Assembly: GCA_903911225.1 (NCBI GenBank)
Contig: CAIWCT010000163.1
Coordinates: forward strand, 1-42,572
From: an uncultured delta proteobacterium
GTDB lineage: Bacteria > Desulfobacterota > WTBG01 > CAIYCZ01 > CAIRTM01
Length of the DNA: 42,572 nucleotides
Direction of reading: 5' to 3'
Part shown: piece by piece, positions 14,283 to 31,046 of the stretch
Layout: every line of letters begins with the position of its first letter
Position numbering within the stretch: position 1 is the stretch's first letter
Translations under genes and position numbers: made by a program
Notes under the pieces: generated by a model
The model's database searches: none
Seen by the model: the letters and a program-made list of their open reading frames with translations, nothing else
What the model was told of the DNA's origin: nothing

Positions 14283-16562
14283 TTAACTTTCCAATGGCTC
14301 CCTGGGTTTTGCCTCCTGGAACATATTGCAGCCCGTGCATCGGTAAAACCACTGCCCTCTGCGCGTTGAAGGAACAACCTGCGTGGGTTTGCCGCAGCTT
14401 GTGCAGGCGATGGGATCAGGCATGCGGGGATCTGCTTCTTTTTCCGTCTGCCATGTGTCGCACTGCGCACAGAGCTTTCCCCCGCTTTTGGTGGTTTTGA
14501 TTGGCCCCTGGCAAAATCGACACAGCTCCAGCGGTTTGCCTGTAGCGTCCGAATCAAAAGACACCCTGCAGCCTGTATTTGCCGTTGCGGCGCACTTCAC
14601 ATAGTATCTGCCTTCCCAGTCCCGAAGATGCAGGTTGGAACCACATTTCGTGCAGGTTCCCACCACGGGCCCGAAAATACGCCGGCCAGCCTGGGGGGCC
14701 TGCTGTTTGATCTGTTGCACCAGCTCCATCACGAAGCTCTGGATGCCGCGCATGAACTCGTCGCGCTGGCCCGCTCCCCGGCGAATCTGTTCCAGACGAG
14801 CTTCCCATTCGCCGGTCATCTGCGGGCTTTTCAGGGTCTCGGCCCGGATAGATTGCACCAGCTCAATCCCTTTGGCTGTGGGCTGCAGGATGTTACGCTT
14901 GCGCTCAACAAACCCGCGTTTCAGCAGGGTTTCGATGATGTTGGCCCGGGTGGCGGGTGTGCCCAGGCCGCAGTCTTTCATGGCCCCCTTCAGTTCTTCA
15001 TCATCGAGTTCCTTCCCCGCGCTCTGCATGGCGCCCAGCAAATCCCCTTCGGTCATGCGCTTGGGAGGTGAGGTCTTGCCTGCCCGGGGGCACAGATCTT
15101 TCGTCTGCACGGCTTCTTCCTTGATAACTTTCGGCAGCAGACCGGAGTCCTCATCCTCCTCCGACTCCTGCGCCTCGGGGCCATCCACCTTTATTGTGTC
15201 TTTTTTCGGACGGCTATGGGGCGGGTCTACGGCAGACCAACCCAACTCCTTCACAACCGTGCCCGTGGTCTTAAAAGTTTCCTTAACGATTTTTGTTATG
15301 ATGGTAGTCTTGCCTTCGACACGCTCGGGAAAATGCGCAGCCAAAAACCTGCGTCCGATCAGTTCATATATCTTCAGCTGATCTCCCTGAAGCTTTCTGG
15401 CCGGATTCTCCGTCGGCACCAGGGCCGAGTGGTCCTCCACCTCTTTATCGTTCACAAAACGCTTTTCGAGCTTCACTGGCCAGCGGTTGCGAAGCTCCTG
15501 CACGAAAGGCTGCACTTCAGCAAGCTGGCCCTGCGCAATGGCCTTAAGCCAGCCCACGGTCTTTTGGGCATCACTTTCAGTCAGGTATCTGGAATTCGTG
15601 CGCGGGTAGCTGATAAGCTTGGCCTCATAGAGTTCCTGCGCTACTGACAGGGTATGCTCAGCCGTAAAACCGAATCGCTTGTTTGCCTCTTTTTGAAGGT
15701 TCGTAAGGTCGTAGAGCAGCTCGGGTTTTTTCTTTTCCGTCCGGGAAGTCAGCGATGCAACCTTGCCGGGCAGTCCGGACAGCTTGTTTGCAAGTGCCTG
15801 TGCGTCCTGCTCCTGTTCAAAGCGATCCTGATCCCTGCCCTCAACTTTGCAAAACCATTTTCCCCGGTAGGTGCCGCCCTCGGCCTGGAACGTGGCCCAT
15901 AAAACCCAGAAGTCCTTCGGGATGAAGTCCGTGATTTCCCGCTCGCGATTGACAAGAAGCGCCAGCGTTGGCGTTTGAACGCGGCCGATGGAGTACACAC
16001 CTTCTGCTCCCGAGCGCTGCATAACCAGAGTTTGGGCTCGCGTACAGTTGATGCCGACCAGCCAGTCTGCCTCCTGCCGACAGCGCGCCGCATCCCGCAG
16101 GCCCTGGTACACCTCGCCCGGCTTCATCCGGGCATAGGACTCCCGAATGGCGTCATCCGTGAGACTCGAGGTCCAGAACCTCAATACCTTTTTTGTGCAT
16201 CCGGACAGGCGATAGACCAGATCAAAAATAAGCTCGCCTTCGCGGCCGGCGTCCGTCGCGTTCACGACTTCCGTCACATCGTCGCGGGTCAATAATTGCG
16301 CCACAATTTTGTATTGCTCCCGGGTGGCCTCGATGGGTGAGTACTGAAAAGGATCAGGGAAAAATGGCAGGGTCTCCATCCTCCAGGATTTAAGCCCGGG
16401 ATCATAAACTTCCGGTCCCACAGCCTGCACCAGATGCCCCACGCACCAGGTGACGATAACGTCGCCACCCTGAATAAAGCTCCGCCCCGAGCCCTGAATG
16501 CCCAAAGCCGCAGCAATGGAGCGGCCCACGCTGGGCTTTTCACTGATGATAAGACGTATCAA
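14283..16562 (-). CDS. topB: DNA topoisomerase III (type IA), plasmid/ICE TraE-like
   Basis: A 759-residue type IA topoisomerase that passes single strands through a transient tyrosine-linked nick, used to decatenate DNA. The toprim part begins IRLIISEKPSVGRSIAAALG with Glu8, and carries NATDAGREGELIFDLVYR with the Asp104 acidic cluster. The catalytic tyrosine is Tyr319 in LISYPRTNSRYLTE. The C-terminus has three zinc-ribbon units (CTKCGS...C..C, CRFCQGP...CAQC, CTSCGKP...CTGC), as in topoisomerases carried by conjugative elements. It directly precedes, in the same orientation, the broken hsdR piece and Fic region, so it may have come with mobile DNA. Confidence 0.95.
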   Translation of the reverse strand: MIRLIISEKPSVGRSIAAALGIQGSGRSFIQGGDVIVTWCVGHLVQAVGPEVYDPGLKSWRMETLPFFPDPFQYSPIEATREQYKIVAQLLTRDDVTEVVNATDAGREGELIFDLVYRLSGCTKKVLRFWTSSLTDDAIRESYARMKPGEVYQGLRDAARCRQEADWLVGINCTRAQTLVMQRSGAEGVYSIGRVQTPTLALLVNREREITDFIPKDFWVLWATFQAEGGTYRGKWFCKVEGRDQDRFEQEQDAQALANKLSGLPGKVASLTSRTEKKKPELLYDLTNLQKEANKRFGFTAEHTLSVAQELYEAKLISYPRTNSRYLTESDAQKTVGWLKAIAQGQLAEVQPFVQELRNRWPVKLEKRFVNDKEVEDHSALVPTENPARKLQGDQLKIYELIGRRFLAAHFPERVEGKTTIITKIVKETFKTTGTVVKELGWSAVDPPHSRPKKDTIKVDGPEAQESEEDEDSGLLPKVIKEEAVQTKDLCPRAGKTSPPKRMTEGDLLGAMQSAGKELDDEELKGAMKDCGLGTPATRANIIETLLKRGFVERKRNILQPTAKGIELVQSIRAETLKSPQMTGEWEARLEQIRRGAGQRDEFMRGIQSFVMELVQQIKQQAPQAGRRIFGPVVGTCTKCGSNLHLRDWEGRYYVKCAATANTGCRVSFDSDATGKPLELCRFCQGPIKTTKSGGKLCAQCDTWQTEKEADPRMPDPIACTSCGKPTQVVPSTRRGQWFYRCTGCNMFQEAKPREPLES

Positions 16563-16592
16563 AAGATATCCTTTGAACTGGAGTCAAATCTG

Positions 16593-16618
16593 CTTGTGGC
16601 TTTTATCAAGCTGTTCGC
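16593..16618. repeat. 26-bp direct repeat, left copy
   Basis: CTTGTGGCTTTTATCAAGCT plus GTTCGC; 23 of 26 positions match 17733-17758 in the same orientation. The two copies bracket the hsdR fragment and fic. Homology between the fragment and intact hsdR ends right at this copy. Confidence 0.5.
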
Positions 16619-16620
16619 CA

Positions 16621-16820
16621 CAGATGCGTCTCCCCCTTAACTTCTATCCTGTTGTTTCCGCCAGCCAGGGCTTTAACACCTCCGACAGCACAACCTGGTC
16701 AAGCCGCCCATTGCGCAGCTTTACTGCTTCTTCGCGGCTGAGATACTTCCAGCCCAGGGCATGCAGCACCTGAATTGCCGGTATCACTGAATCAAAGTCT
16801 TCAAGATAGGAAAGGCTCAT
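16621..16820 (-). pseudogene. Truncated, frameshifted 5' fragment of hsdR
   Basis: About 200 bases that match the 5' end of the intact hsdR (27422-27622) with roughly ten substitutions by eye. The translation runs MSLSYLEDFDSVIPAIQVLH through DQVVLSEVLKPWLAE, then a one-base deletion in an A-run (T-run at about 16653 on the plus strand) shifts the frame to a stop at 16644. Matching DNA continues to about 16621 and then breaks off. Only the first 60 or so of 1073 codons remain, so nuclease and motor domains are absent. It follows fic by 19 bases, which suggests a former fic-hsdR arrangement rather than a simple copy of the present abi-hsdR locus. Confidence 0.88.
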
Positions 16821-16839
16821 GGCTTTTCCACTTTTCTAA

Positions 16840-17595
16840 TTAACCCTCGTCCAGATTCTTTAATAATCTGATGTAATCTCTCTGGCTTTCGCAAACCATG
16901 CACGACAGCAGGTTGATGAAGGGTTTATTGTCGCCGGTATTGGTCGCCTTCAGCGTGTCAATATAATCGGGCCGGAGCACCGGCGGAATAATGGTGATCG
17001 GATAGCCTGCCTGCAGGAGAGCCAGATTCATTAAGAGCCGGGCTGTTCTGCCGTTACCGTCAATGAACGGATGGATGCTTACTAGCCCTATATGCAGCAG
17101 TGCGGCAAACTCTATTGGGTGTGTGCCTGCCCTCTTCGCCTCAACATCAGCGGCAAAATCCCGCATAAGCTTTTTTATTTCCTGCGGGCGGGGGAGCGCA
17201 AGCGTTGAGCCCGTTATTACAACGCCAACCTTGCGATAGTGCCCTGCTTGTTTTGCGTCTATTCTGAAATAAAAAAGTTTATGAAGATCAAGAATATGCC
17301 GCTCTGTTATTGTTTGCTGCCGGGCCAGCTTGTACAGAAGGTCGAAAGCCTCGCTGTGCCCAATCGCTTCGAAATGGTCCTTGAGGGGCTTGCCGCCGAT
17401 AGTGATGCCGTCTTCGAGCACAACCTTGGTTTCGGATTCCGTGAGGCTATTGCCTTCAAGGGCATTGCTGGAATACGTCAACCCAATGCGGTAATACTCC
17501 TTGAGCTGCTTCAGGGCATGTTTGCTCAAAGGTCGCATTGCAAGGATTTCCCGTAACATCTGATCGGCTTCTTTTATACGGTTGTCGAATTTCAT
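16840..17595 (-). CDS. Fic-family protein (AMPylase-type), class II
   Basis: A 251-residue protein that probably transfers AMP or another nucleotide moiety to a protein hydroxyl. The catalytic core HPFIDGNGRTARLL at residues 175-188 matches the HxFx(D/E)GNGRxxR motif with His175. The N-terminal segment TYSSNALEGNSLT (residues 40-52) fits the self-inhibitory (S/T)xxxE(G/N) motif of class II Fic enzymes with Glu47. The flap PLKDHFEAIGHSEAFDLL is also typical. ATG 17595 has AAAGGAG at good spacing, although the frame is open further upstream. It stands just upstream of the broken hsdR, and Fic genes are frequent in restriction loci. Confidence 0.93.
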   Translation of the reverse strand: MKFDNRIKEADQMLREILAMRPLSKHALKQLKEYYRIGLTYSSNALEGNSLTESETKVVLEDGITIGGKPLKDHFEAIGHSEAFDLLYKLARQQTITERHILDLHKLFYFRIDAKQAGHYRKVGVVITGSTLALPRPQEIKKLMRDFAADVEAKRAGTHPIEFAALLHIGLVSIHPFIDGNGRTARLLMNLALLQAGYPITIIPPVLRPDYIDTLKATNTGDNKPFINLLSCMVCESQRDYIRLLKNLDEG

Positions 17596-17667
17596 GGCGC
17601 ATACTCCTTTCGGGAATTTGTTGGGTTCGCCCTTTTGCTGGTGCTTCTTTGCAAGTATTTGTTTTGA

Positions 17668-17724
17668 GTAGGTTGAGTTGAGGCACGAAAGCCAACGGTT
17701 TATTCCGGGCTTAACCCAACCTAC
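17668..17724. repeat. REP-like palindrome upstream of fic
   Basis: GTAGGTTGAGTT (17668-17679) and AACCCAACCTAC (17713-17724) are near-perfect inverses. This is a common dispersed repeat type. The paired cores face outward, unlike an attC site. Confidence 0.6.
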
Positions 17725-17732
17725 GAAAACTA

Positions 17733-17758
17733 CTTGTGGCTTTTCTCTAGCTGTGCGC
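17733..17758. repeat. 26-bp direct repeat, right copy
   Basis: CTTGTGGCTTTTCTCTAGCT plus GTGCGC; partner of 16593-16618. No second copy of the hsdR fragment accompanies it. Confidence 0.5.
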
Positions 17759-17826
17759 GTATTTGTTTTGTTTTTTCCGGGGGTTTTGTCTGTTTTTGTT
17801 TTCCGGGCCGCCCCCATGCCTTCCTG

Positions 17827-18642
17827 CTACTTGTGCCTAGCATTATCCGGCAAACAAGTTATTGCCTTTTCTCCCGCCGTGCAATGATATGGGCGTTCCT
17901 GCATGTCGTCGTCGTTTTTGCACCACAACCCGTTTATTTTTAAGGTCAGGTCATTTCTATCCCCGTATTTTATAAATTTATCAATATACCAATCCCCGCA
18001 TATTTCCTGATCAGGAATAACACCCAATACGGGAATTCTTCCTGCCGCCTTGCCGCTTTCAAAAACAAGGGCCTGAAATTTATTGGCCTTAGCCTCATCA
18101 GAAACAAGCAAATAAATTGTTTCATTATCTCGTGTGGCATTGCCAAAATCAAAGGTCCGCGCGAAAAGGCTGCCATTATTTGCACGGCTTGCTGTGCTGT
18201 AGCCAATTATTTTACCAAGATACTCGCCTTTGTCCGTATAGAAATAAATTGTATCATGTCCGGCACAGCAGCCGTATTCAATTGTTGCCAGTATGAATGG
18301 CGCATCCCAAGTGAACTGAACCATTACAACATCTTCACCCGTGTTAAGATTAAATTTTATATTTGCAGGCTGAACATCAATAGTGTGTGTGCATGCACCA
18401 TAAACTCCCTCGGCAGGATATGGCTTTTGACAACGGCTAACCACCTTCACTCGTCTTTCTTCCGGCTTCTTCGGGGCATAAACAAGCAAATAAGCGCGCT
18501 CTGTTTTTTCAGTGCCATTATCTATGGCATACGACCATTCTGTATCAATAGTATTAGAGATATGCCCAAGAGATGAGCAGCTGCAGAAAATAATTGTGCT
18601 AAATAACCACAGTAAAAATATAGGCGCTGTTTTATTAATCAT
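17827..18642 (-). CDS. Lipoprotein of unknown function, third gene of putative cassette array
   Basis: A 271-residue protein with a lipoprotein leader (LWLFSTIIFCSCSSLG; Cys in FCSC is the likely lipidation site). The mature region is mixed alpha/beta with several cysteines (YGCCAGHDTIYFYTDKGEYLG, ICGDWYIDKF, LWCKNDDD), suggesting disulfides in the periplasm. I recognise no family. The ATG comes 11 bases after an attC-like site and has no Shine-Dalgarno, which is common for integron cassette genes. No attC-like site follows its stop, so it may be the last, broken cassette. Confidence 0.7.
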   Translation of the reverse strand: MINKTAPIFLLWLFSTIIFCSCSSLGHISNTIDTEWSYAIDNGTEKTERAYLLVYAPKKPEERRVKVVSRCQKPYPAEGVYGACTHTIDVQPANIKFNLNTGEDVVMVQFTWDAPFILATIEYGCCAGHDTIYFYTDKGEYLGKIIGYSTASRANNGSLFARTFDFGNATRDNETIYLLVSDEAKANKFQALVFESGKAAGRIPVLGVIPDQEICGDWYIDKFIKYGDRNDLTLKINGLWCKNDDDMQERPYHCTAGEKAITCLPDNARHK

Positions 18643-18653
18643 TTTTTATTTTT

Positions 18654-18716
18654 GCCTTACGACAACCTTCAGCGGCGGCGCGGTTTTGCGACGTACACTG
18701 AAAGGTTTTGTTAGAC
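18654..18716 (-). repeat. attC-like recombination site (site b)
   Basis: Read on the minus strand, immediately after the stop of the upstream gene: GTCTAAC (fits R'' RYYYAAC), a 6-base spacer, TTTCAG, a 25-base centre, CTGAAG, a 6-base spacer, and GTAAGGC (one mismatch to R' GTTRRRY). The arms AACCTTTCAG and CTGAAGGTT pair with one extra base on the R'' side, as in true attC sites. The total of 63 bases is in the normal range. Confidence 0.6.
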
Positions 18717-19271
18717 CTATCTCAAGCGTATTGTCATTGTGTTTGCCTTAATGGTTTTATGCCGATAGTTGGGAATCTTAAAGTCAGTCAAGGTCTTATC
18801 GGCGGTCTCTTTTTTGAACGCGCCGAAGTAAGGATCGAGTTGAACTTCGACATTATAAAGAACACCTTTTTCAATCCTGTATTCGGCGTCGAATGCACGG
18901 TAACGATCTGCTTTATATGAAACAGGTATCGGAATTGTTCTGGTTTGTCCTGGTGCAATAATTACAAATAAATCGGGATGGGGGCGCGTATCCATGTGAA
19001 TCATGATGCGCCCTACGGGCACCACTGGTTGTCCGTTTCTAAGAACCGCGATCTTCACTGCAAGAGGTGATTGATTCACTGAAATAATTTCGTTGGATGT
19101 GTTCTTCATATAGAGCAGCGCGCCCTCCTTGTCATTATTGATGAGGCGCACCTCCAAACCATCTTGAACCGGCACAGCGCCCCCATAACCCACAAGTTCA
19201 ATCGTTTCAGAACACCCTGAGAGAAGCAGGCAGAGCGACGCGACTGCGATCATATTGTTTGTCGGTTTCAT
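18717..19271 (-). CDS. Lipoprotein of unknown function, second gene of putative cassette array
   Basis: A 184-residue protein with a clean lipobox (MIAVASLCLLLSGCSE, Cys20). The mature domain is beta-rich (GLEVRLINNDKEGALLYMKN, VILAPGQ-like IIAPGQTRTIPIPVSYKADR, LYNVEVQLDP), resembling an Ig-like or transthyretin-like sandwich. I know no family. Start ATG 19271 follows AGAGAGGAAC. An attC-like core (GTTAGGC) ends 12 bases before the ATG, and another attC-like site begins with the first base after its stop codon, exactly the layout of an integron gene cassette. Confidence 0.7.
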   Translation of the reverse strand: MKPTNNMIAVASLCLLLSGCSETIELVGYGGAVPVQDGLEVRLINNDKEGALLYMKNTSNEIISVNQSPLAVKIAVLRNGQPVVPVGRIMIHMDTRPHPDLFVIIAPGQTRTIPIPVSYKADRYRAFDAEYRIEKGVLYNVEVQLDPYFGAFKKETADKTLTDFKIPNYRHKTIKANTMTIRLR

Positions 19272-19283
19272 TGTTCCTCTCTG

Positions 19284-19328
19284 GCCTAACGATAAAGGTC
19301 ACTGTCGTGGTGAAGCGCAAAGTCAGGC
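19284..19328 (-). repeat. attC-like recombination site (site a), short and degenerate
   Basis: On the minus strand GCCTGAC (R'' with AAC changed to GAC) and, 31 bases later, a perfect R' GTTAGGC at 19284-19290. The cores pair with one G-T wobble. Inner TTCAC and GTGAC can pair. At 45 bases it is shorter than typical attC sites, so alone it would be weak; its position between two lipoprotein genes supports it. Confidence 0.4.
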
Positions 19329-19345
19329 GATCTTTTTTTTCAAAG

Positions 19346-20152
19346 TTAAAACACGTTTACCGTGATCTCGCCGGGGCCGGTTTTCATGGTCAGGTTTCCG
19401 TCGGTTGCGCCAAGGTCGAAGGAGGCCTCGATGGAAATGAAGCCTGATTTTGTAAAATCGGTGATGCCGGTAATAGAAATATCCCCGACATCGGTTTTAA
19501 GCTGTGCGCTTGTGGAGCGGTCTTTTGAAATCTCGCAGTTGATATTGCCGACATCTGTTTTTATGGAGCCGTCAAGGGCGCCGCTGCCGCTGATATGTAT
19601 GCCGGCATTGCCCACATCGGTCCGCAGGCTGAAATTGTCACCGGTGTAATCCCCGACATGGACAGTGCCAGTAGCGGTTGCAAGCTGGATATCGCCCGTT
19701 GCGGTCTCAACCGTGATGTTGCCCACATCATTGGTTATGGTGCCGCCGTTCATGCTGGCGCATTGGATGGTGCCCACATCCAGATCGATGTCAAGGGGCA
19801 GGCCCTGAACGCCCGTAATGGTCAGATTTGCTCCGCCGTACACGGTATTCACGATGGTGTTGGGTTGGTGCACGGTGATGGTGCAGGTGTTGTTATCGAC
19901 CTCGTAGGTGACCTCGATCTGGTCAAGATACTGCTGGGCCCGGCTTTTAACGCACGCACTGGCAAACTTATCGACCGTAACTTCAACGCCGGTGCCGCCC
20001 GAGATCGTGATGTCGCCCACCTGCGAGTTGATAACAAGCCGGGTAAAAGGTTCGCTGATACTGAACTGCTGCGTATCGGTAAGTCGCTGATATTTGCAGC
20101 CAGCCAGCGCCGCAAGAAACAGAAACATGGTCACAGTTGTTCTTATTTTCAT
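19346..20152 (-). CDS. Lipoprotein with GIN/DUF4097-type repeat domain, first gene of putative cassette array
   Basis: A 268-residue protein: lipoprotein leader (MFLFLAALAGCKYQ, Cys19), then a repetitive right-handed beta-solenoid. Short repeats run through it: VGDITISGGTG, VGTIQCASMNGG, VGNITVETATG, VGNAGIHISGSG, VGNINCEISKD, VGDISITG. This is the pattern of the GIN/DUF4097 putative adhesin family found at cell surfaces. ATG 20152 is chosen over the longer open frame because AGGGAGGG precedes it and the signal peptide starts there. A bulged hairpin with an attC-like core lies upstream, interrupted by a group II intron fragment. Confidence 0.8.
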   Translation of the reverse strand: MKIRTTVTMFLFLAALAGCKYQRLTDTQQFSISEPFTRLVINSQVGDITISGGTGVEVTVDKFASACVKSRAQQYLDQIEVTYEVDNNTCTITVHQPNTIVNTVYGGANLTITGVQGLPLDIDLDVGTIQCASMNGGTITNDVGNITVETATGDIQLATATGTVHVGDYTGDNFSLRTDVGNAGIHISGSGALDGSIKTDVGNINCEISKDRSTSAQLKTDVGDISITGITDFTKSGFISIEASFDLGATDGNLTMKTGPGEITVNVF

Positions 20153-20185
20153 AGTACCCTCCCTTGTGAACCTTAAAAGTTTTGC

Positions 20186-20238
20186 AACCAACAAAAAGGT
20201 CAGCCGCCGCTGAAAGCGGACGGCTGAAGTGACTTTGT
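20186..20238 (-). repeat. attC-like bulged hairpin interrupted by intron (site o)
   Basis: Strong hairpin at 20200-20227: TCAGCCG/CGGCTGA with inner CCGCT/AGCGG, a GAA loop and one bulged A. On the minus strand an R'-like GTTGGTT (20186-20192) follows it. On its other side the plus strand reads GACTTTGT and then enters the intron, where the complement of R'' should continue. This matches insertion into the bottom strand of an attC site. Confidence 0.45.
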
Positions 20239-20420
20239 GGTACGCCCGGCACGGGCCTGAACTAATGGGGTGAAAGTCCCCTGTACGAAAATCCGGTTAA
20301 TGTTGAAACTAGCATTAGCAGAAGTACCAGCCGAAGGCAAGGGCGCAGTCGCGAGACCGGGTCTGAAGGAAGCCGGAGTGCAAAGCTGTGAGCCGACGAA
20401 CAGAAACAGCATATAAGGCT
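20239..20420 (+). mobile_element. Group II intron, 5' fragment (domain I region only)
   Basis: The sequence carries the conserved 5' part of a bacterial group II intron: GTACGCCCGGCACGGG, GGGGTGAAAGTCCCCTG (20267-20283), AACTAGCATTAGCAGAAG, CCGAAGGCAAGGG, GGTCTGAAGGAAGCCGGAG and GCCGACGAACAGAAAC. It stops near 20420. No reverse transcriptase ORF, domain V or domain VI is present here or further right, so it cannot splice. The exact 5' end is uncertain within a few bases. It lies beside a bulged hairpin, the habitat of class IIC introns, opposite in strand to the cassette genes. Confidence 0.82.
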
Positions 20421-20425
20421 TAAAC

Positions 20426-20438
20426 AATAGGTGACTGT
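20426..20438. repeat. RAYT-associated motif, left copy
   Basis: AATAGGTGACTGT, also at 22144-22156 in the same orientation. It begins just after the truncated intron, so insertion at this point may have cut the intron. Confidence 0.5.
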
Positions 20439-20479
20439 TGTTCTTGTTTTTCTGTTTATTTCCAATCGTCTGGATACCG

Positions 20480-21349
20480 CTAGTCAAGCGCCCCATGTTC
20501 TTTTGCAGTCTTGATCCAGTGTTCGGCCAGCTCGGCAGAATTTGCGCCCAGACCACGGCCAAGGTGCAGCGCCAGTCCCATCATTAATTCTGATGCTTTG
20601 CAAAAATCAGTGACATTGTCCAGTGAGCCAAATGATTCTTGAGCTTTCGATAGGAGCAGATCGTAATGCTGACGAGAAAAAGCTACAGGATCATTCAAGC
20701 TATCCATTAACTCAGGGAGCATCAGCAAGTCGATCCACTCAAAACCAAGCCGTTTCGCCAACTGTTCGGGCGCTTCTCTACCCATCTCTCGCCAGAGACG
20801 CAATGTCTGCCGGTCACCCGATTCGGCCAAACCACTTTCCAGCAGAAGGGCGAAAGCGATATCAGCTAATTTTTGCATCAGTTCAAGATACTCATCATGG
20901 GCAACTTCGAATCGTTTCGTGGCTTGTCCTTCAATGTAGGCAGCGACACTCAATTGAGGTAAATCTAAGACCTCCGGACACCCTTCCATACAGGAAAATT
21001 CACTCCCCTGGTACATGTAGTACAACTCTTCACCCTGTCTTTGGCGACCAAGAGGATATAACCGGCAGGCCAATGGGCGCCCCAAATATACGCTGCATCC
21101 AAAATCAAGTACATACTGGCTGCACCCCGGCTGCTGTTTCCAGCCAGGTGCACCATCAAAACGCAAATCGATGCCACCAAAATCGCAGTAACGATCACGA
21201 AAAGCCCTCGGGGTCAGTTCTTTTGCTTCAGCCAGACAAGCCAGTTCCCAAGGGTTCAGCCGGACCGTTTTGCCATGACAGCAGGTACCTGAACGTGAAC
21301 AGGTAAGTGGCAGATTATCTGTACAGGTGAGTTTGGTCGTGACCAGCAT
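20480..21349 (-). CDS. YkgJ-family cysteine-cluster protein
   Basis: A 289-residue protein with the YkgJ/UPF0153 metal-binding cysteine cluster: LTCSRSGTCCHG at residues 16-27, then PGCSQYVLDFGCSVYLGRPLACRLYPLG around 75-104 and SCMEGCPE. Such proteins are thought to hold Zn or an Fe-S cluster; their role is not established. The C-terminal half is helical without recognised motifs. AAGGAA precedes ATG 21349. It lies between the left RAYT-associated motif and the transposase gene, so it may be a passenger. Confidence 0.85.
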   Translation of the reverse strand: MLVTTKLTCTDNLPLTCSRSGTCCHGKTVRLNPWELACLAEAKELTPRAFRDRYCDFGGIDLRFDGAPGWKQQPGCSQYVLDFGCSVYLGRPLACRLYPLGRQRQGEELYYMYQGSEFSCMEGCPEVLDLPQLSVAAYIEGQATKRFEVAHDEYLELMQKLADIAFALLLESGLAESGDRQTLRLWREMGREAPEQLAKRLGFEWIDLLMLPELMDSLNDPVAFSRQHYDLLLSKAQESFGSLDNVTDFCKASELMMGLALHLGRGLGANSAELAEHWIKTAKEHGALD

Positions 21350-21422: not shown

Positions 21423-22106
21423 TTAAAACGTGTCCTTCTGCTTTCTTTTTCGCGGCCTGCCAACGGGTAAAGCGCTGAGTCTGCGATCAAACCGCCGCTC
21501 CAGTTTTTTTATAAATCGATCAGAGCCGTATGGCCTGCCGGTCATAGTATGCCTGCGCAGTGTTTCTGCATCTTCCTCTCCTGGCCCCCTCAATACCTGC
21601 TTCCACCCCCAACTTTCGACAAGCTTATGCCAGGTTTGCATGTCAAGCAGGTCATCACGCGCTTTGCCTTCAATATGCGCCTTGGCGCTCGACCACAGGT
21701 ACTGCTCCGGCTGCTTGACCGTTCCAATACGAACAGGATTGCGTTCAATATATCGCATGGCGCTTACCAGGTGCATCGCTTCGAGAATAACGGAGTAAAA
21801 CCGGTTTTGCCAGAGATGGCCGCTGCGTTTGTACTTTTTGTTGAAGTACTGTGTGTATCTGTAATGCGCCTGGCCAATGGCCTTGGCAAGCAGCGCCCCC
21901 TCCTGCGGCATTACTACAAGATGCACGTGATTTGTCATCAGACAATATCCCAAAATCCTGACTTTGTATTTTTCAGTAAGTGATTTGAGAAATACGAGAT
22001 AGGAAGACCTGTCCTCATCATCAAAAAAAATATCCTGACGATTATTGCCCCGCTGCGTTATATGGCAGGGGTAGTTATCTGCGATGATTCTGGCTAGTCG
22101 TGGCAT
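21423..22106 (-). CDS. REP-associated tyrosine transposase (RAYT, Y1/HUH family)
   Basis: A 227-residue single-strand transposase related to IS200/IS605 TnpA. MPRLARIIADNYPCHITQRGNNRQ is the canonical N-terminus, YCLMTNHVHLVVMP carries the HUH metal motif (HVH), and YRYTQYFNKKYKRSGHLWQNRFYS contains the tyrosine region. The C-terminus is extended and basic (RRFDRRLSALPVGRPRKRKQ). RAYTs process palindromic REP-type sequences in trans, and this window is full of such palindromes. A hairpin AATAGGTGACTGTCCCTATT lies 38 bases upstream of the start. Confidence 0.93.
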   Translation of the reverse strand: MPRLARIIADNYPCHITQRGNNRQDIFFDDEDRSSYLVFLKSLTEKYKVRILGYCLMTNHVHLVVMPQEGALLAKAIGQAHYRYTQYFNKKYKRSGHLWQNRFYSVILEAMHLVSAMRYIERNPVRIGTVKQPEQYLWSSAKAHIEGKARDDLLDMQTWHKLVESWGWKQVLRGPGEEDAETLRRHTMTGRPYGSDRFIKKLERRFDRRLSALPVGRPRKRKQKDTF

Positions 22107-23687: not shown

Positions 23688-24401
23688 CTACTCTGCGTAC
23701 AAGTTCAGTTTTCCTCTACGCTCCTCAAAATCCGGCATCACATTTTGCATAAGTTTCCAAAATTTCGGACTGTGATGTTTCACCTTAAAATGGCATAGCT
23801 CATGTTGAATCACATAGTCTATGCATTCTTTCGGAACTTTGATAAGTTCCAGATTCAGAGTAATGCGGCCCGCAAGTGAAAAACTACCCCAACGGCTTAC
23901 CATTTGTTTAATTTGAAGAGTGGGCAGAGGTATTGCTTCGCGTGATGTTTTTTGATGGCAAACTAACAACCGCTCCTGAAAGATTTCTTTCGCATGGGCT
24001 CGATACCAGCCATCCAGAAGAATTTTTGCCCGTTCCGAGGTCGACTTTTTTTTTGTTGTTACCCACAAATAACCTCTCAGGCATTTTACTGAATCGGTGT
24101 CGCCCTGTTGAACTTTGAGTCGGTATTGACGCCCCAGATAGCGATGTGTTTCTCCGCTTATGTACCGTCGCTGAGGCTGTTTTGGTAAATACTGCTCAAA
24201 ATCACGCCACGCCCTGCTGATCCACCCCCCCCGCCGTCTCACAAAGCTTTGTATGTCTTTAGCGTTATAGCCTAAAGGAGCTTTGACTGTTACAGACAAA
24301 TCAGGGTGAACGCTTAAAGCAAAAGTCTTACGCTGAGAAAAACCGTACTTATAAGGAATATCAAGTGTTCCCCACTTAATGCTGTCTAACTGTAGTTCCA
24401 T
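23688..24401 (-). CDS. YgjP/SprT-like zinc metalloprotease (DUF45)
   Basis: A 237-residue putative zinc peptidase of the YgjP/DUF45 family that often accompanies type I restriction genes. The zinc motif is YVIQHELCHFKVKHHSPKFW, with H200-E-x-x-H204 and a downstream His. QMVSRWGSFSLAGRITLNLELIKVP before it is also diagnostic. Its ATG overlaps the hsdR stop as TAATG, so it is translationally coupled; an upstream in-frame start would give 12 extra residues but lies inside hsdR. A run of eight G (24225-24232, codons 57-59) could slip and frameshift it. Target proteins are unknown. Confidence 0.88.
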   Translation of the reverse strand: MELQLDSIKWGTLDIPYKYGFSQRKTFALSVHPDLSVTVKAPLGYNAKDIQSFVRRRGGWISRAWRDFEQYLPKQPQRRYISGETHRYLGRQYRLKVQQGDTDSVKCLRGYLWVTTKKKSTSERAKILLDGWYRAHAKEIFQERLLVCHQKTSREAIPLPTLQIKQMVSRWGSFSLAGRITLNLELIKVPKECIDYVIQHELCHFKVKHHSPKFWKLMQNVMPDFEERRGKLNLYAE

Positions 24402-27400
24402 TATTTGCCCGATAGTTTTTTGGCTATGGAGAGACATTTCTCAATGATGGAATCCATATCAGCTGTCGAAAAACTAATGCCGTATTTGCCGCGCGCCTCA
24501 AGCAAGTAATCATCTATGGCATTCTGCATTTCTTTCTGCACATCATCCATGGTAGCCCAATCCCTGCGCTTGAGTTTGCCGATAATCTCTTCAATAGCAA
24601 TAGCAATTTCCGCCGCATTTTGCTTGTGCTGGCCCGATTTAACCGTATAGCTTGCCAGAGTCTCGCCTACTACTCCATAATATGCCGGTGCCTCCCGGTA
24701 GTAGGTAAGCTGTTTGGGTAACTCAGTTTCATGACCCTGCCGTACGGTTGTCATGAACTCAGTCACCTGCCGGAGATAGTCTGCATCCGTAATCCGTTTT
24801 TCACGATAATCATCAATTGCCTTTTGGACTAAATCGGCAAATTTTTTGTAAAAAACCGGGTCTTCATCAATTTTTTCATGAACTGTTTTTATCAGACGGC
24901 TTGCGATAGTGTCGGCTTTAGCCGCAGGGCCGATACGTTTTTCAACTTCTTTATCAAATGCCTCAACATCAAATATGTTTACCTGTTCGGTCACGACCTC
25001 AATTTCTGGCGCTTGAATGTGACTGTCCATCACCTTTAAAATCTGTTTTTCATACTGGCTGTAATCAATTGCTTCGGAGTATCGCTGCTGGACCGACATT
25101 CGCAAACTCCAAAACCGTTTCAGGTCATCTTTATAGGTTTTTATCAGATCAGCGGGCGTTTCATCGTAAAAGTGCTCTGTTGCTAAAGCCACCGATAGAG
25201 TTTTTTGGTAAGCCGTCAACGCTTCATAGAATGTTTCCCGTTTGTCTTCCGGTGCTAGGTGCTGTTCCATGGCCTCATTATCATGTTTATTGCCCACTTC
25301 TTTAAATGCAGCCCAAAGGTCAGAATGTTTCTGAGGCAGTGTGCGCACTTCGGCGTGTGTATCCGTCACAGCGCCCGACAGATCAACATCATCGGTGTCA
25401 AAACCACCCAGAGCATCATAGGTGTTCATGGCCTCGTTTAAATTACCCAGAATACCCCGGTAGTCAATGATGTAGCCGAAATCTTTTCCGGGATAAATAC
25501 GATTTACCCGTGCAATGGCCTGCAGAATACTGTGCTCTTGAAGTTGTTTATCAATGTAGAGAACGGTATTGCGCGGCTCATCAAAACCCGTCAGCAGCTT
25601 ATCGATAACGATCAGAATCTCGACACCGTCTTCCCGTCCGAAGGAACTTATCAGTTCCTTGTTATATCGCTCTTCCGAACCGAAACGTTTCAGCATCTCG
25701 GCCCAGAAAAGATGCACGTCGGGAGTATCTTCCTCTTCCGTCGATTCCTGGCCGCTGCGCGTGTCAGGCTGCGACATAATGACTTCACTGTCAATCATGC
25801 CGTACTCTTTAAAAAACTTACGGTAGAGAATTGCACTCGGCCGAGAGTCGGCAGCCAGTTGAGCCTTAAACCCGGTTCCTTGAAAATTGTCTCTGTAATG
25901 AGTGCTTATATCGTAAGCAATAAGCCGCAGTCTTTGCTCAGCTTTAGGAACAGCCTCTTTTACGATGATTTTTCTTTTCAAGTCGGCTTTTTGGGCTTCA
26001 CTAAGTTTGGCCGTTATTCGCTCAAACCAGAGATCCATAGCCTTATGGTTTTGTTCCAGAAGGGCCATTCTGCCTTCATAGAGAAGTGGCGCTACAGCCT
26101 CGTCTTCAACGGCCTGCCGCATTGTGTAAGAATGGATGAACCCGCCGAATTTACGAGCCGTACTTTTTTCATTCTTCAACAGGGGTGTGCCCGTAAATCC
26201 AAGATAGCAGGCATTGGTGAAGACCCGCCTCATTTGGGCAGCCGTTGCGCCATAGTTGGTGCGGTGGCTTTCATCAACCAGAACGAATATATTGGGGCTG
26301 TCGTTTTTAATGCCGTATTTAGCTGTAACGGTAGTGAACTTGTTAATAATGGCTGTGATGACACTGGCTTTTCCTTCGGTAATCAACCGCACAAGATGCT
26401 CGCCCGTATTGGCTTTCTCAGCCGCTTTACCGCAAGCGGAAAAAGTTCGCCAGATTTGATCGTCAAGATCAACGCGGTCGGTAACAATAATTATGCGCGG
26501 GTTGGTGATGGCCGGATGCAGCGCCAGAGCCTTGGCAAGCATAACCATAGTCAGTGATTTGCCGCTGCCCGTAGTGTGCCAGATAACGCCGCCCCGCCGC
26601 TGCCCTTCGTGCAGGGGCACTACACGCTCTACCGTCCGCTTGACGGAAAAATACTGCTGGTACCGGGCAATCTTGCGCACTCCGGCATCAAACACAATAT
26701 ATCCATAGGCCAGTTCCAGCAACCGGTCCGGTCTTAACAACGCCCAAAGCGTATGATCCTGAGTAGTGGGCAGCCGGTCACCGCTTGCCCATAATTTATT
26801 AAAATATTGACGCGCCTCACGGTACGCTTCAGCATCTTTTTCTTCCAAAGGAGCAAAAAGTTTTGCCTCCACATCGGCAGGCAAACGCTGGTTGGCTGTG
26901 GCGTGTATGGCCTGGTCAAAACCTCCTTCTTCTTTCCACACACTCCAATACTTGCGCGGTGTTCCGACTGTGCCGTAGCGTGTTTCATTTACACTAGAAC
27001 CGAAAAGCAGTTGTGCAAACTGAAAAAGATGCGGAATATAATCATCTTTCTGGTTGCGAATCATTTGCTCGATGGCAACTTCAATCTGTTTCTGCCCGGC
27101 CTGATGATCTTTATCGCGGCGTTTGCATTCAATAACCACAAAGGGAATTCCATTTACAAACAGCACAAGATCGGGCCTGGCTGTCTCATGCGAGCGGCTC
27201 CGTTCAACGGCGAATTCGCTGGTCACATGATAAATATTTTTGTTCGGTTCTTGCCAGTTTATGTAGCGTAGCGAACGTCCTTTGCGATCTCCTCCGATTG
27301 TTTGATCAAGGCTTGTTCCCAGGGTCAGAAGATGATAGGTTTTTTCATTTGTCCGCACTAGGCCGTCATACGGTTCATCGGTCAACCGCCGTACGGCCTC

Positions 27401-27622
27401 GCCAATGTTTGCTTCACTGAATAAATGTGTCTCACCCTTAACTTCTATCCTGTTGTTTTCCGCCAGCCATGGCTTTAACACTTCCGGCAACACAACCTGG
27501 TCAAGCCGCCCATTGCGCAGCTTAACCGCTTCTTCCCGGCTGAGATACTTCCAGCCCAGCGCATGCAGAACCTGAATTGCCGGTATCACTGAATCAAAGT
27601 CTTCAAGATAGGAAAGGTTCAT
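24401..27622 (-). CDS. hsdR: Type I restriction enzyme, R (motor/nuclease) subunit
   Basis: A 1073-residue subunit that translocates DNA with ATP and cuts it at a distance when bound to the M2S methylase core. The nuclease is PD-(D/E)xK: ARPDLVLFVNGIPFVVIECKRR with Asp151, Glu165 and Lys167. Helicase motifs follow: Walker A TTGSGKS at 350-356, VDESHR at 449-454, LGFTGTPLL, and the C-terminal motor signatures KLLTGFDEP and QAIARVNR. The helical C-terminus ends IEKCLSIAKKLSGK. Its ATG overlaps the Abi_2 stop by four bases (ATGA), and its stop overlaps the protease start. A diverged 5' fragment lies at 16621-16820. All key residues appear intact. Confidence 0.96.
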   Translation of the reverse strand: MNLSYLEDFDSVIPAIQVLHALGWKYLSREEAVKLRNGRLDQVVLPEVLKPWLAENNRIEVKGETHLFSEANIGEAVRRLTDEPYDGLVRTNEKTYHLLTLGTSLDQTIGGDRKGRSLRYINWQEPNKNIYHVTSEFAVERSRSHETARPDLVLFVNGIPFVVIECKRRDKDHQAGQKQIEVAIEQMIRNQKDDYIPHLFQFAQLLFGSSVNETRYGTVGTPRKYWSVWKEEGGFDQAIHATANQRLPADVEAKLFAPLEEKDAEAYREARQYFNKLWASGDRLPTTQDHTLWALLRPDRLLELAYGYIVFDAGVRKIARYQQYFSVKRTVERVVPLHEGQRRGGVIWHTTGSGKSLTMVMLAKALALHPAITNPRIIIVTDRVDLDDQIWRTFSACGKAAEKANTGEHLVRLITEGKASVITAIINKFTTVTAKYGIKNDSPNIFVLVDESHRTNYGATAAQMRRVFTNACYLGFTGTPLLKNEKSTARKFGGFIHSYTMRQAVEDEAVAPLLYEGRMALLEQNHKAMDLWFERITAKLSEAQKADLKRKIIVKEAVPKAEQRLRLIAYDISTHYRDNFQGTGFKAQLAADSRPSAILYRKFFKEYGMIDSEVIMSQPDTRSGQESTEEEDTPDVHLFWAEMLKRFGSEERYNKELISSFGREDGVEILIVIDKLLTGFDEPRNTVLYIDKQLQEHSILQAIARVNRIYPGKDFGYIIDYRGILGNLNEAMNTYDALGGFDTDDVDLSGAVTDTHAEVRTLPQKHSDLWAAFKEVGNKHDNEAMEQHLAPEDKRETFYEALTAYQKTLSVALATEHFYDETPADLIKTYKDDLKRFWSLRMSVQQRYSEAIDYSQYEKQILKVMDSHIQAPEIEVVTEQVNIFDVEAFDKEVEKRIGPAAKADTIASRLIKTVHEKIDEDPVFYKKFADLVQKAIDDYREKRITDADYLRQVTEFMTTVRQGHETELPKQLTYYREAPAYYGVVGETLASYTVKSGQHKQNAAEIAIAIEEIIGKLKRRDWATMDDVQKEMQNAIDDYLLEARGKYGISFSTADMDSIIEKCLSIAKKLSGK

Positions 27623-28530
27623 AGTCGTCCTTCCGGCGTGCTAAGCCACCGCCGATGCGTTTGCCAGCCATCGGGCAACCCCATGACAGTTTTCAAATTG
27701 TCAGTGCATGCGATTGGCTCAATAAGGCGTGTAACCTCGCCCTGCCATCCCTGCCCCAGACACTGGCCATCCATCAAATGACGAAGCATAATCAACACAG
27801 TAAAAAGACGCTTCTGGTTTGGTATTTCATTCGGCGGCCATCCGTGTTTTGCCAGGGGCATTAGCGGTGCTATGGCAAATTCGCGATTCCAGAGACGCGA
27901 ATGATGAGCGCAGACATTACGAATAAAACTCAGGCTCCGGAGCCACGATCTCAGCACAAAATGCGGAAGAGCATGTCGCGCACTTACGCGTTGCTGATCT
28001 TTATCTTCCATACCTTCATATAGCCGTGAAAGAGAACCGAACGACATCACCTCTGATGCCATCCAGATGGGGAGGCGGGGAAATCCGTCATACTTATTGT
28101 GAAAATGTTGAATGAAGGTCTCATGGCTTTTTTCTATCTCACCGGTCAATTTTTCGAGCCACTGCGCATGATTGAACCTGTGTCGAAAGTTCCCCGCATC
28201 CTGATACCCGAAAGCCCCATATGCATGGGCAAGGGTATATGTGACAGCGGTCCTTATAGCCACCTCCACCCGCTCCAGTGCATCCATTACGAGCAGCCGC
28301 AGCTGACGGTCAAACTCGTAGAGGTTTATGATAGTATCCCATGTTGTGCCTTCATTAAATTGATCAAGGCTGTTCTTGAATGGCAGGCAATAGGCGCTAA
28401 AACGGTAATAGCTTATTCGGGAAAGGATCGTTTCGGCGGTGGCACGGTCTGCTATGATAAGACCGCGGCTGATGAGCAGATCGAGCTGCTGAGGGTACGT
28501 AAGAGCGGGTTTTGTATAGGGGATGGTCAT
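27619..28530 (-). CDS. Abi_2 family (AbiD/AbiF-like) abortive-infection protein
   Basis: A 303-residue all-helical protein of the Abi_2 group. It begins YTKPALTYPQQLDLLISRGL, has SRISYYRFSAYCLPF and LYEFDRQLRLLVMDALERVEVAIRTA, and carries the HEPN nuclease-type motif RNVCAH (Arg204 to His209) in SFIRNVCAHHSRLWNRE. HEPN proteins usually cut RNA; AbiF relatives have been described as toxins held by an RNA antitoxin and as likely relatives of Cas13. ATG 28530 is preferred to an in-frame TTG at 28539. It overlaps hsdR by four bases and the 52-codon ORF upstream by four bases. Confidence 0.88.
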   Translation of the reverse strand: MTIPYTKPALTYPQQLDLLISRGLIIADRATAETILSRISYYRFSAYCLPFKNSLDQFNEGTTWDTIINLYEFDRQLRLLVMDALERVEVAIRTAVTYTLAHAYGAFGYQDAGNFRHRFNHAQWLEKLTGEIEKSHETFIQHFHNKYDGFPRLPIWMASEVMSFGSLSRLYEGMEDKDQQRVSARHALPHFVLRSWLRSLSFIRNVCAHHSRLWNREFAIAPLMPLAKHGWPPNEIPNQKRLFTVLIMLRHLMDGQCLGQGWQGEVTRLIEPIACTDNLKTVMGLPDGWQTHRRWLSTPEGRL

Positions 28531-28685
28531 GATAGCCAACCCCCGCGGGAAACAAAAATAAAAAACCTGCCATTGGTACGCGTCATCTCCTCATAAAGAG
28601 GGGCGAGAGGCGTGGCAGGTGTGTTACCTTCTATATAGCACTGGTTATTCTCAGAAGCAAAACTTTTTTTCATTTTTTTACTCAT
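28527..28685 (-). CDS. Candidate 52-residue ORF overlapping both neighbours
   Basis: MSKKMKKSFASENNQCYIEG...PLAPLYEEMTRTNGRFFIF...WLS. Its ATG overlaps the stop of the HEPN gene (ATGAGTAA) and its TGA overlaps the ATG of the Abi_2 gene (ATGA), a layout typical of translational coupling. No Shine-Dalgarno is visible. The second half coincides with a terminator-like hairpin, so it may be a leader peptide whose translation decides whether transcription continues. It could equally be a chance frame over a structured RNA. I know no homologue. Confidence 0.45.
   Translation of the reverse strand: MSKKMKKSFASENNQCYIEGNTPATPLAPLYEEMTRTNGRFFIFVSRGGWLS
28550..28620 (-). terminator. Terminator-like hairpin upstream of abi_2-hsdR
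   Basis: On the minus strand ACCTGCCA (28620-28613) pairs with TGGCAGGT (28572-28565), enclosing a 40-base loop that holds a smaller CCTC/GAGG hairpin. A T-rich tail (TTTTTTATTTTTG) follows. It lies between the HEPN gene and the Abi_2 start, inside the 52-codon ORF, and could act as an attenuator or be the 3' end of a structured RNA. Confidence 0.6.
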
Positions 28686-29736
28686 GTGTGGTTTGATTGC
28701 AAAACATCCGGGAATGCAGGCCTGATAATGCCTCAATAGATAATTTTATGGCTTCTTCTATTTCTTCTTTTGTAATTCTTACTTCCCGACCTTCTCGTTC
28801 AGCCTCAATGGCGCTGGCCAAATATTTTTTATCCATTACACCGAGATTGTGGGTTATTGGGTGCCGTTTATCAAAAGTGGAAGCCAGAAATTCAATTTTA
28901 TCTTCTAAAAAACCCTCAAACAGTTCGGCCTGCGTTCGGTTTTTTATAATAGCCATACTTCTTTTTGGGCTTTGGAAGCCGTTTCTTATTCGTGCGCTAA
29001 AAAGTTTTTGAATATTTTCCTCCGTTTCACCGGATTCTTTCAGATAGCGGGTCAGCATGGCCTTTAATACGGCCTCAAAAATAGAAACCGTATCCTCCAG
29101 ACAATTTTCCAAATCACGAGCTGCGATGCGTGGCCCAAGGTCATTGCGCCTTCTATCAATGTCGGCAAGCATAACCCGGATGACTTCATATTCGGCTTTC
29201 ACATGTTCCATGAAAATATCTTCGCCGCAATCAGAGCACCACACCGCCAAGCCAAAAACCGCATGGTCAAGCCCACATCGAGGGCAAACTACTGTCCGCA
29301 AGACCTCTTCCTCAAAAGGTACATGCACATGCCTTGGCTGGCCCTCTTTATAGCTCATCTCCACGGAAAGAAAACTGCCACCAATTTTTTTCTTACCTGT
29401 ACTGCCAAACCCCAGCGAATCTTTGAATATTTTGCCTATGGCTATTCCCGCCTCCCTGGCCAAAATTTTCTTGGCATAGTTTAGCTGTTCTTCGCTGGTG
29501 AAATCACTGGGCTCTGCTTCGAATCGGCAGTAGGGGCAGTATGCAAAAGTTTGCCCTTCTGTAATACCAGTACCATTTTTCACTTTAAAATAGCCGGGGG
29601 CACATTCATCTTGCGGGCATTCCCTGCCAGTGCGGCCATGCTCATCTGGGGGAATGCGGACTTCCATTGAATATGAGCTTTGGCCTGTCTTTCGAATATT
29701 ATATGGGCCACCTTCTTGAAATAAATCTCGTGTCAT
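28678..29736 (-). CDS. Zinc-ribbon protein with C-terminal HEPN-like domain
   Basis: A 352-residue protein of unknown role in the restriction operon. The N-terminal half has cysteine pairs Cys40/Cys45 and Cys67/Cys70, and a second set CPRCG (151-154) with CSDCG (167-170), likely zinc ribbons. The C-terminal half is helical and contains FDKRHPITHNLGVMDKKYL, whose Arg291-His296 spacing and context match HEPN domains of the RiboL-PSP/MAE_28990 type. I infer an RNA-acting effector or sensor. It starts 14 bases after hsdS and ends overlapping the 52-codon ORF. Confidence 0.7.
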   Translation of the reverse strand: MTRDLFQEGGPYNIRKTGQSSYSMEVRIPPDEHGRTGRECPQDECAPGYFKVKNGTGITEGQTFAYCPYCRFEAEPSDFTSEEQLNYAKKILAREAGIAIGKIFKDSLGFGSTGKKKIGGSFLSVEMSYKEGQPRHVHVPFEEEVLRTVVCPRCGLDHAVFGLAVWCSDCGEDIFMEHVKAEYEVIRVMLADIDRRRNDLGPRIAARDLENCLEDTVSIFEAVLKAMLTRYLKESGETEENIQKLFSARIRNGFQSPKRSMAIIKNRTQAELFEGFLEDKIEFLASTFDKRHPITHNLGVMDKKYLASAIEAEREGREVRITKEEIEEAIKLSIEALSGLHSRMFCNQTTHE

Positions 29737-29750
29737 GATTACCCCCTCAT

Positions 29751-30971
29751 CTATATTTTCACCCGTAGCTTCCCGGTAAGTAGCTGCTGCATCAGACCTT
29801 TCTTCTGATCCCTAAGGGCATCAAGCTGAGCATGAAGAAGATTGAGTTCGCGCTCGGCAACATCTATTACACCTGCGATCTTACGTTGCTCCTCTATTGG
29901 CGGGCACGGAACCCTGAGTGAAAAAAAATCATGGACTGTGACGTTTAGCAAACCGTGTGCTCTTGCTCCTACCTGTACTATCATTCTGAGCTGACTATTG
30001 AGGACGCCTCCTTCAAAAAGATGCTTGTAGTAGTCTGAGAAAACGTCACCAGAAGCAGGTTTGAAGCAGATGTACAAAGTTGAGAGCACGCCATCATCAT
30101 ATTCATCCAGTCGTTTGATTGCACCGTATGGATAACCATTCATTGAACTTCTATTATAGGCAAACTCACCACGCCGCAGTGAAAAATAGTTTTCCAGGGC
30201 ATCCCCCGCAACGGAACGATTAAAGTAGTCTGTTTGATCAACTAAGCCGTGCTCTCCAGATGCAGTTAGAACTCTTGTTGCTCCAATAGTGTTTTTTCGA
30301 CGAACTGGCTCAAATAATTCTTTTATGTTAACTTCCCGCCATCGTTTGCCGAATCCTTGCAGTCGTCTCTTGCCAGACAAAAGCTGCTGCATGAGCCATG
30401 TCCGGCGTTCCTGCTTGGCTGTTATTCTTTGTTCGGTAAGGTCAATAGCCCGGTCCCATTTTGAAAGTATTGCTGCAATTCTTTCTTGTTCTAACAATGA
30501 AGGAATATCTATAAAAATTTCACAAATCCTTGTTGGCGATGTATGTCTGACTTTAGTGCCTGATGCGGTTTCGGAAATCGGCTTTCTTAAAAGCGGGGAG
30601 TTGAAAAGATGAAAAAGAAATTCGCTATAAATTGTCTGAGGGTCTGCAATTATTACTAGGCCTAATCGTTGATTGTGCAAATACTTGCCACTTCTAGGAA
30701 TAATGATAGCACTTCCTAAAAGTCCAGGGGCTTGCTCTGTCATTACAATAAGCAGGCTCCCGTGGCTTAATAAATATTCTTGAGGAAAAGGCCCTGTGTA
30801 GTATTTTTTTTGATCACAAATATCTCTAAATCCACCGGATTCGTAAAAATTTCCAGGGGTCAACAATACATAATTCCCATGATTGCTAAAAAATTCACTT
30901 TTGAAAGCAAAGCCATGCTTTATGGAAATTAATTCTTCAAGCTTTTTAGTTTGCCATTTTTTATCGATCAT
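29751..30971 (-). CDS. hsdS: Type I restriction enzyme, S (specificity) subunit, two TRDs
   Basis: A 406-residue specificity subunit. The first target-recognition domain starts WQTKKLEELISIKHGFAF and ends in IPSLLEQERIAAILSKWDRAIDLTEQ, a conserved helical spacer. The second starts RWREVNIKELFEPVRRKN and ends VPCPPIEEQRKIAGVIDVAERELNLL with its own spacer QLLTGKLR. This is the standard two-TRD layout recognising a bipartite site. It lies 75 bases after hsdM. The Shine-Dalgarno is weak. A separate half-S gene sits before hsdM, so two S products compete for one M. Confidence 0.95.
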   Translation of the reverse strand: MIDKKWQTKKLEELISIKHGFAFKSEFFSNHGNYVLLTPGNFYESGGFRDICDQKKYYTGPFPQEYLLSHGSLLIVMTEQAPGLLGSAIIIPRSGKYLHNQRLGLVIIADPQTIYSEFLFHLFNSPLLRKPISETASGTKVRHTSPTRICEIFIDIPSLLEQERIAAILSKWDRAIDLTEQRITAKQERRTWLMQQLLSGKRRLQGFGKRWREVNIKELFEPVRRKNTIGATRVLTASGEHGLVDQTDYFNRSVAGDALENYFSLRRGEFAYNRSSMNGYPYGAIKRLDEYDDGVLSTLYICFKPASGDVFSDYYKHLFEGGVLNSQLRMIVQVGARAHGLLNVTVHDFFSLRVPCPPIEEQRKIAGVIDVAERELNLLHAQLDALRDQKKGLMQQLLTGKLRVKI

Positions 30972-31046
30972 GTTTCCACTTTTTTAAAATTGAAGCTATT
31001 TTATTGGTCTTCATCGATGTAAAGGAATCCTCTCGATTAACGGTCA

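Follow-up and report, generated by a model that had tools for sequence, protein, structure and literature searches.

Three consecutive minus-strand genes on a contig from an uncultured delta proteobacterium are separated by attC-like sites, and a hairpin upstream of the first gene runs into part of a group II intron on the opposite strand. Does this arrangement represent what is left of an integron cassette array, and what is the intron doing there? Clusters in which two or more attC sites line up with short genes while no integrase is nearby are known as CALINs and are thought to be degraded integrons (PMC9024848). The window analyzed here is the whole stretch of 42,572 nucleotides, contig C163 of an assembly of 4.86 Mb in 455 contigs that is 85.5% complete. 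The relatives of its GyrB were found in metagenome-assembled genomes of Deltaproteobacteria / Thermodesulfobacteriota, the closest with 89% identity. We consider the stretch, with a probability of about 0.9, to be a remnant integron cassette cluster without an integrase, that is, a degraded CALIN, carrying a fragment of a group IIC-attC intron. The following features were identified in the window:

14283-16562: topoisomerase gene, flanking the cassette stretch on the same side as the Fic gene
16840-17595: Fic gene, between the topoisomerase gene and the cassette stretch
17827-18642, minus strand: 271-aa ORF, the final gene of the cluster in the direction of transcription, atypical lipobox FCSC
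18654-18716, minus strand: attC site b of the 184-aa gene, with R'' GTCTAAC and R' GTAAGGC (one base of the boxes deviates from consensus)
18717-19271, minus strand: 184-aa lipoprotein gene, lipobox LLSGC, no known family
19284-19328, minus strand: attC site a, belonging to the 268-aa gene, R'' GCCTGAC and R' GTTAGGC, shortened hairpin tip
19346-20152, minus strand: 268-aa lipoprotein gene, lipobox LAGC, DUF4097 toastrack domain (Pfam PF13349/PF17115)
20186-20238, minus strand: attC site c, with R' GTTGGTT intact and R'' interrupted by the intron after its last two bases
20239 to about 20419, plus strand: 5' fragment of a group IIC-attC intron (Rfam RF02001, group-II-D1D4-3), opposite to the cassettes
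20480-21349, minus strand: 289-aa ORF with a CxxCxxCC motif (YkgJ-like, Pfam PF03692)
21423-22106: REP-type transposase gene (tyrosine transposase), on the other flank of the cassette stretch
24401-27622: HsdR gene
29751-30971: HsdS gene
31047-32564: HsdM gene

Together with a gene for a YgjP-like peptidase, the type I restriction-modification genes occupy positions 23688-32564 of the window and adjoin the cassette cluster.

The attC sites were assessed with three covariance models. Model R1 was built from 11 and model R2 from 35 attC sites, none of them from the source genome; the training sites were taken from cassettes on class 1 integron plasmids and from the neighborhood of IntI genes in relatives. 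For model R3, the attC sites of contigs C9, C37 and C439 of the source genome were added. All E-values for attC derive from a shortened calibration. Scans with hand-made attC patterns were noisy at low thresholds and were dropped for the covariance models, and a MAFFT alignment of the sites, which had uneven arms, was dropped for an ungapped seed.

Model R1 gave site a as its best match in the window (15.4 bits, E 0.069), with site b in third place. When both strands of the 42.6 kb were searched with model R2, site b ranked first (18.0 bits, E 0.027) and site a second (13.2 bits, E 0.38), and the next-best match had an E-value of 2.6. Only three matches with E-values below 5 were obtained in the window with model R3, namely site b (22.0 bits, E 0.0047), site a (17.3 bits, E 0.055) and site c (12.6 bits, E 0.64, spanning 20186-20242), all on the minus strand and in successive spacers. 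Model R3 includes near relatives of sites a and c, and its matches are therefore supporting rather than independent evidence. The covariance models found matches at all three places where attC-like sites had been proposed.

The anatomy of the sites agreed with these matches. Site b was confirmed as the earlier note had described it: its first base directly follows the stop codon that closes the 184-aa ORF, and 11 bases lie between its end and the next ATG. The L arm pairs as CTT-[T]-CAGTG / CGCTG-AAG, with a single additional base on the R'' side, and the spacers measure 5 and 6 nt. The whole site, including both spacers and the unpaired base, was aligned to model R2 over its full length. The perfect R' box GTTAGGC of site a was likewise found at 19284-19328; one box base is off consensus in the site as a whole, and the site was aligned to model R2 with a shortened L arm. 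In a test against the box consensus RYYYAAC / GTTRRRY, sites a and b passed with one deviation each; site c retains R' only. Sites a and b lie in adjacent spacers of about 74 bp on the strand of the genes, with 568 bp between these two full sites; site c is a third, cut one. A CALIN is defined by at least two neighboring attC sites, which the stretch has.

The sites are nevertheless decayed and not canonical. Model R2 was able to find reference attC sites outside its training set, such as that of IMP-1 at 29.2 bits. Reference attC sites scored from 22.9 to 72.7 bits and sites a and b only from 13 to 22 bits, and the latter are therefore regarded as degraded. In a genome-wide scan both would be near threshold, site b having an E-value of 3.0 with model R2 over the whole genome.

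Related attC sites, which the earlier note had expected elsewhere in the genome, were present on several other contigs. On C37, the model placed attC sites between short genes at 7557-7614, 5354-5425 and 8061-8129 (coordinates of locus L011), with 35.6, 32.1 and 14.8 bits, respectively. Contig C9 carried one attC site (39.8 bits) and C439 carried two (24.7 and 22.9 bits). Site c was 97% identical over 38 nt to the intact C37 site at 7557-7614, which has both R boxes, and site a shared 94% identity over 33 nt with the site on C439 at 7280-7349, the tip being shortened in site a. Repeats of the form GTAGGGTGGGTG...CCCACC were seen within the tips of attC-like sites at L011 6309-6484 and at L139 1623-1907, the latter locus being in the sister genome described below; these repeats and the REP-type tyrosine transposase gene of the window are noted here side by side.

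The intron fragment was recognized by the Rfam model group-II-D1D4-3 from position 20345, with 50.3 bits in the whole window and 54.7 bits in 20150-20470 alone. The hairpin that precedes it ends in CTTTGT at 20238, with TTGT at 20235-20238, and in a DNA search of other genomes the alignments of related introns reaching their 5' end started at 20239-20241. The attC-like hairpin thus does run straight into the 5' part of a group II intron on the opposite strand, as had been proposed. IIC-attC introns target TTGT/T in R'' of the attC bottom strand and are inserted opposite to cassette transcription (PMC7923331); the window junction matches this target and this orientation at the left junction, the only one retained. 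The C37 site provides the empty target: its sequence is GAAGTGGTTTTGT/TAGCC, compared with GAAGTGACTTTGT/GGTACGCC in the window, and the intron starts where C37 reads TTTGT/T.

At the other end, the intron relatives align no further than 20419-20422 and the 289-aa ORF terminates at 20480; the true end of the intron lies between 20419 and 20480. No maturase was left in the fragment, and the 3' part and the right junction are lost. At 20420-20425 the window reads TTAAAC, which might represent the TTRRRY half that R'' lacks; the intron relatives also stop aligning at TTAAAC, and we estimate that a random hexamer fits TTRRRY once in 256. An outward promoter, as is reported for the intron S.ma.I2, was not seen in the fragment by a consensus scan.

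The assignment to class IIC-attC, which the earlier note had based on the known behavior of such introns, was supported by the relatives. The fragment was 73% identical to an intron that carries ltrA and sits in the aadA2 attC of class 1 integrons from Klebsiella. The reverse transcriptase of that annotated intron was closest to GsI-IIC RT (409 bits), followed by LtrA (136 bits) and 6me0 (105 bits), which we take to be of class IIA and class IIB, respectively. An R'-like YYAACR motif was present 35-125 nt upstream in 8 of the 19 starts of relatives, that of the window included, compared with 13% at random positions; several intron relatives had no such motif upstream. Two further observations concern group II introns outside the window. 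The source genome contains a second fragment, at L014 3767-3955 (contig C40), which matched RF02001 at 40 bits and, over 60 nt, shared 77% identity with the fragment in the window. Contig C1 of genome G081 carries two related group II introns near each other (L075 5068-5703 and 6307-7105), each about 0.6-0.8 kb long and with one domain V match; a motif scan found no reverse transcriptase frame.

As to the genes, a standard lipobox was found in two of the three proposed lipoproteins (LLSGC and LAGC), while the 271-aa protein has only the atypical FCSC. The 268-aa gene corresponds to a 282-aa ORF whose likelier start is the ATG at 20152. No relatives of the 271-aa gene were found in 98 related genomes, no attC site was detected behind it by the attC models in the window, and the 184-aa gene had no relatives across three sequence collections. 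Because two of the three genes have no recognized family, the proposed designation as surface proteins fits only loosely. Lipobox motifs (LSGC and VPGC) were also seen by eye, as an observation without statistics, in cassette-linked genes on C9 and C37. Site c would belong to an upstream gene, possibly the 289-aa ORF, which may be a former cassette gene preceding it; this ORF was not found in eight genomes of the same genus or family.

No integron integrase was detected in the window or in the 85.5%-complete assembly, where the integrase model gave only sub-threshold tyrosine recombinases. The earlier note had seen none in the window, and this statement now extends to all 455 contigs; with no intI found, the locus is not a complete integron. 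The two best matches were rejected as IntI, their gene context identifying them as XerD (C309) and as XerC beside hslU (C5); two weaker matches were located on C179 and C248. Full IntI genes were present in the same-family genomes G004, G005 and G008, and none was found in G001, the one same-genus genome compared (76% complete). The absence thus holds for the assembly, whereas for the species it is unproven. Genome G004, which has at least 19 attC matches on many contigs in addition to its IntI gene, would suit studies of this lineage's active system better.

Two other explanations bear on these results. The three sites could be chance hairpins or terminators, the intron having simply inserted into a terminator, which is also the habit of other group IIC introns; terminator stem-loops are indeed also targeted by such introns (PMC7923331), and the low scores of sites a and b and the lack of an obvious attC box before some intron relatives would agree with this. 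However, of all model matches in the 42.6 kb, the two best lie on the expected strand in neighboring spacers, and the close identity of site c to a 35.6-bit C37 attC with both R boxes (97%) and of site a to a C439 attC (94%) also speaks against chance. We regard this explanation as scarcely credible and already largely refuted, and the findings that the earlier note had named as speaking against its own reading (no attC-model match, no related sites in the genome, intron relatives outside class IIC) did not appear. The integron could instead still be working, with its integrase encoded in the missing part of the assembly and the cassettes on C163, C37, C9 and C439 movable in trans, so that the array would be scattered rather than dead. 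The incompleteness and fragmentation of the genome, the full IntI genes of G004, G005 and G008 and the good scores of the C9 and C37 sites leave room for this, but no IntI was found here or in the same-genus G001, itself 76% complete, it is the sites in the window that have decayed, and the intron interrupts site c. A working integron therefore seems unlikely, if less so than chance hairpins.

For the remnant cluster that we favor, the following course is proposed. An integron integrase, now absent from the assembly, would have inserted the cassettes serially through folded attC bottom strands, as we infer from the attC anatomy and from the IntI genes of related genera. A group IIC-attC intron then entered the bottom strand of site c at TTGT/T in R'', opposite to the cassettes, as its junction and the empty C37 site show, and it probably arrived by retrohoming. 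The intron has lost its 3' part and maturase, the attC boxes have decayed (GTAAGGC in b, the shortened tip in a and the broken R'' in c), and the genes may now be effectively fixed in the chromosome.

The sister genome G001 offers a comparison for both the position and the contents of the cluster. Its topoisomerase gene, 85% identical at the nucleotide level to that of the window, is also neighbored by attC sites (L139 1576-3152 on G001:C207, compared with 14283-20238 in the window). Beside it are a weak attC site of the site c kind (10.6 bits) with a GTAGGGTGGGTG repeat in its tip, a gene pair that looks like a putative RelE/Phd toxin-antitoxin, a clear attC site (33.2 bits) and another gene. 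As attC sites with other contents lie by the same topoisomerase gene, the position of the cluster appears to be common to the genus, whereas the contents differ.

A copy of the 268-aa gene was found in G001 at another location, with 89% nucleotide identity over window positions 19346-20185 and 82% amino acid identity. The homology stops precisely at the stop codon on one side and, on the other, one base short of R' of site c. The attC model detected no attC site near the G001 copy, which is followed by two 9-bp terminator-like hairpins. The 268-aa gene might accordingly be no old cassette but a chromosomal gene newly made into one in this lineage, perhaps with the aid of the intron; Leon and Roy, as cited in PMC7923331, proposed that IIC-attC introns help to make cassettes. 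The missing attC, the terminator-like hairpins and the sharp ends of the homology would suit such a birth. The reverse fits equally well, the G001 copy having left an array and lost its attC, and the region around the G001 copy likewise has no match to the source genome. Since the intron lies at the attC upstream of the 268-aa gene, not at the gene's own attC, intron-aided cassette making is to be taken here as no more than a possibility. The two genomes fit either cassette birth or cassette loss and do not tell them apart, and we give little credence to a newly made cassette. That the gene pair records a recent birth (or loss) and could serve as a test of intron-assisted cassette formation in nature is a similarly long shot.

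The remnant cassette cluster is of a known kind, as CALINs, IIC-attC introns and truncated introns in arrays have all been described (PMC9024848, PMC7923331). It contributes a cassette cluster that is marked by an intron and lacks an integrase, from an uncultured lineage of deltaproteobacteria, attC sites by the same topoisomerase gene with differing content in two species, and, in the 268-aa gene with and without cassette boundaries, a concrete case for how gene cassettes arise. Like other CALINs, it has attC sites in line, short genes and no integrase nearby, but its sites are more decayed than reference attC sites and only two of them have both R boxes. The IIC-attC intron in the aadA2 cassette of Klebsiella pneumoniae (NZ_CP024839.1) resembles the window intron in sequence (73% identity over the retained fragment), in its left junction CTTTGT/ and in its orientation to the cassettes, whereas it is full length, encodes a maturase and resides in a resistance integron, the window intron being a 5' fragment. 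UHB.F1, a truncated IIC-attC intron lying opposite to the cassettes in an array from a soda-lake metagenome (PMC7923331), is similar in being truncated, in lying within an array and in its orientation; compared by its description, UHB.F1 is truncated at the 5' end and keeps part of its protein, whereas the window intron keeps its 5' end and has lost the protein.
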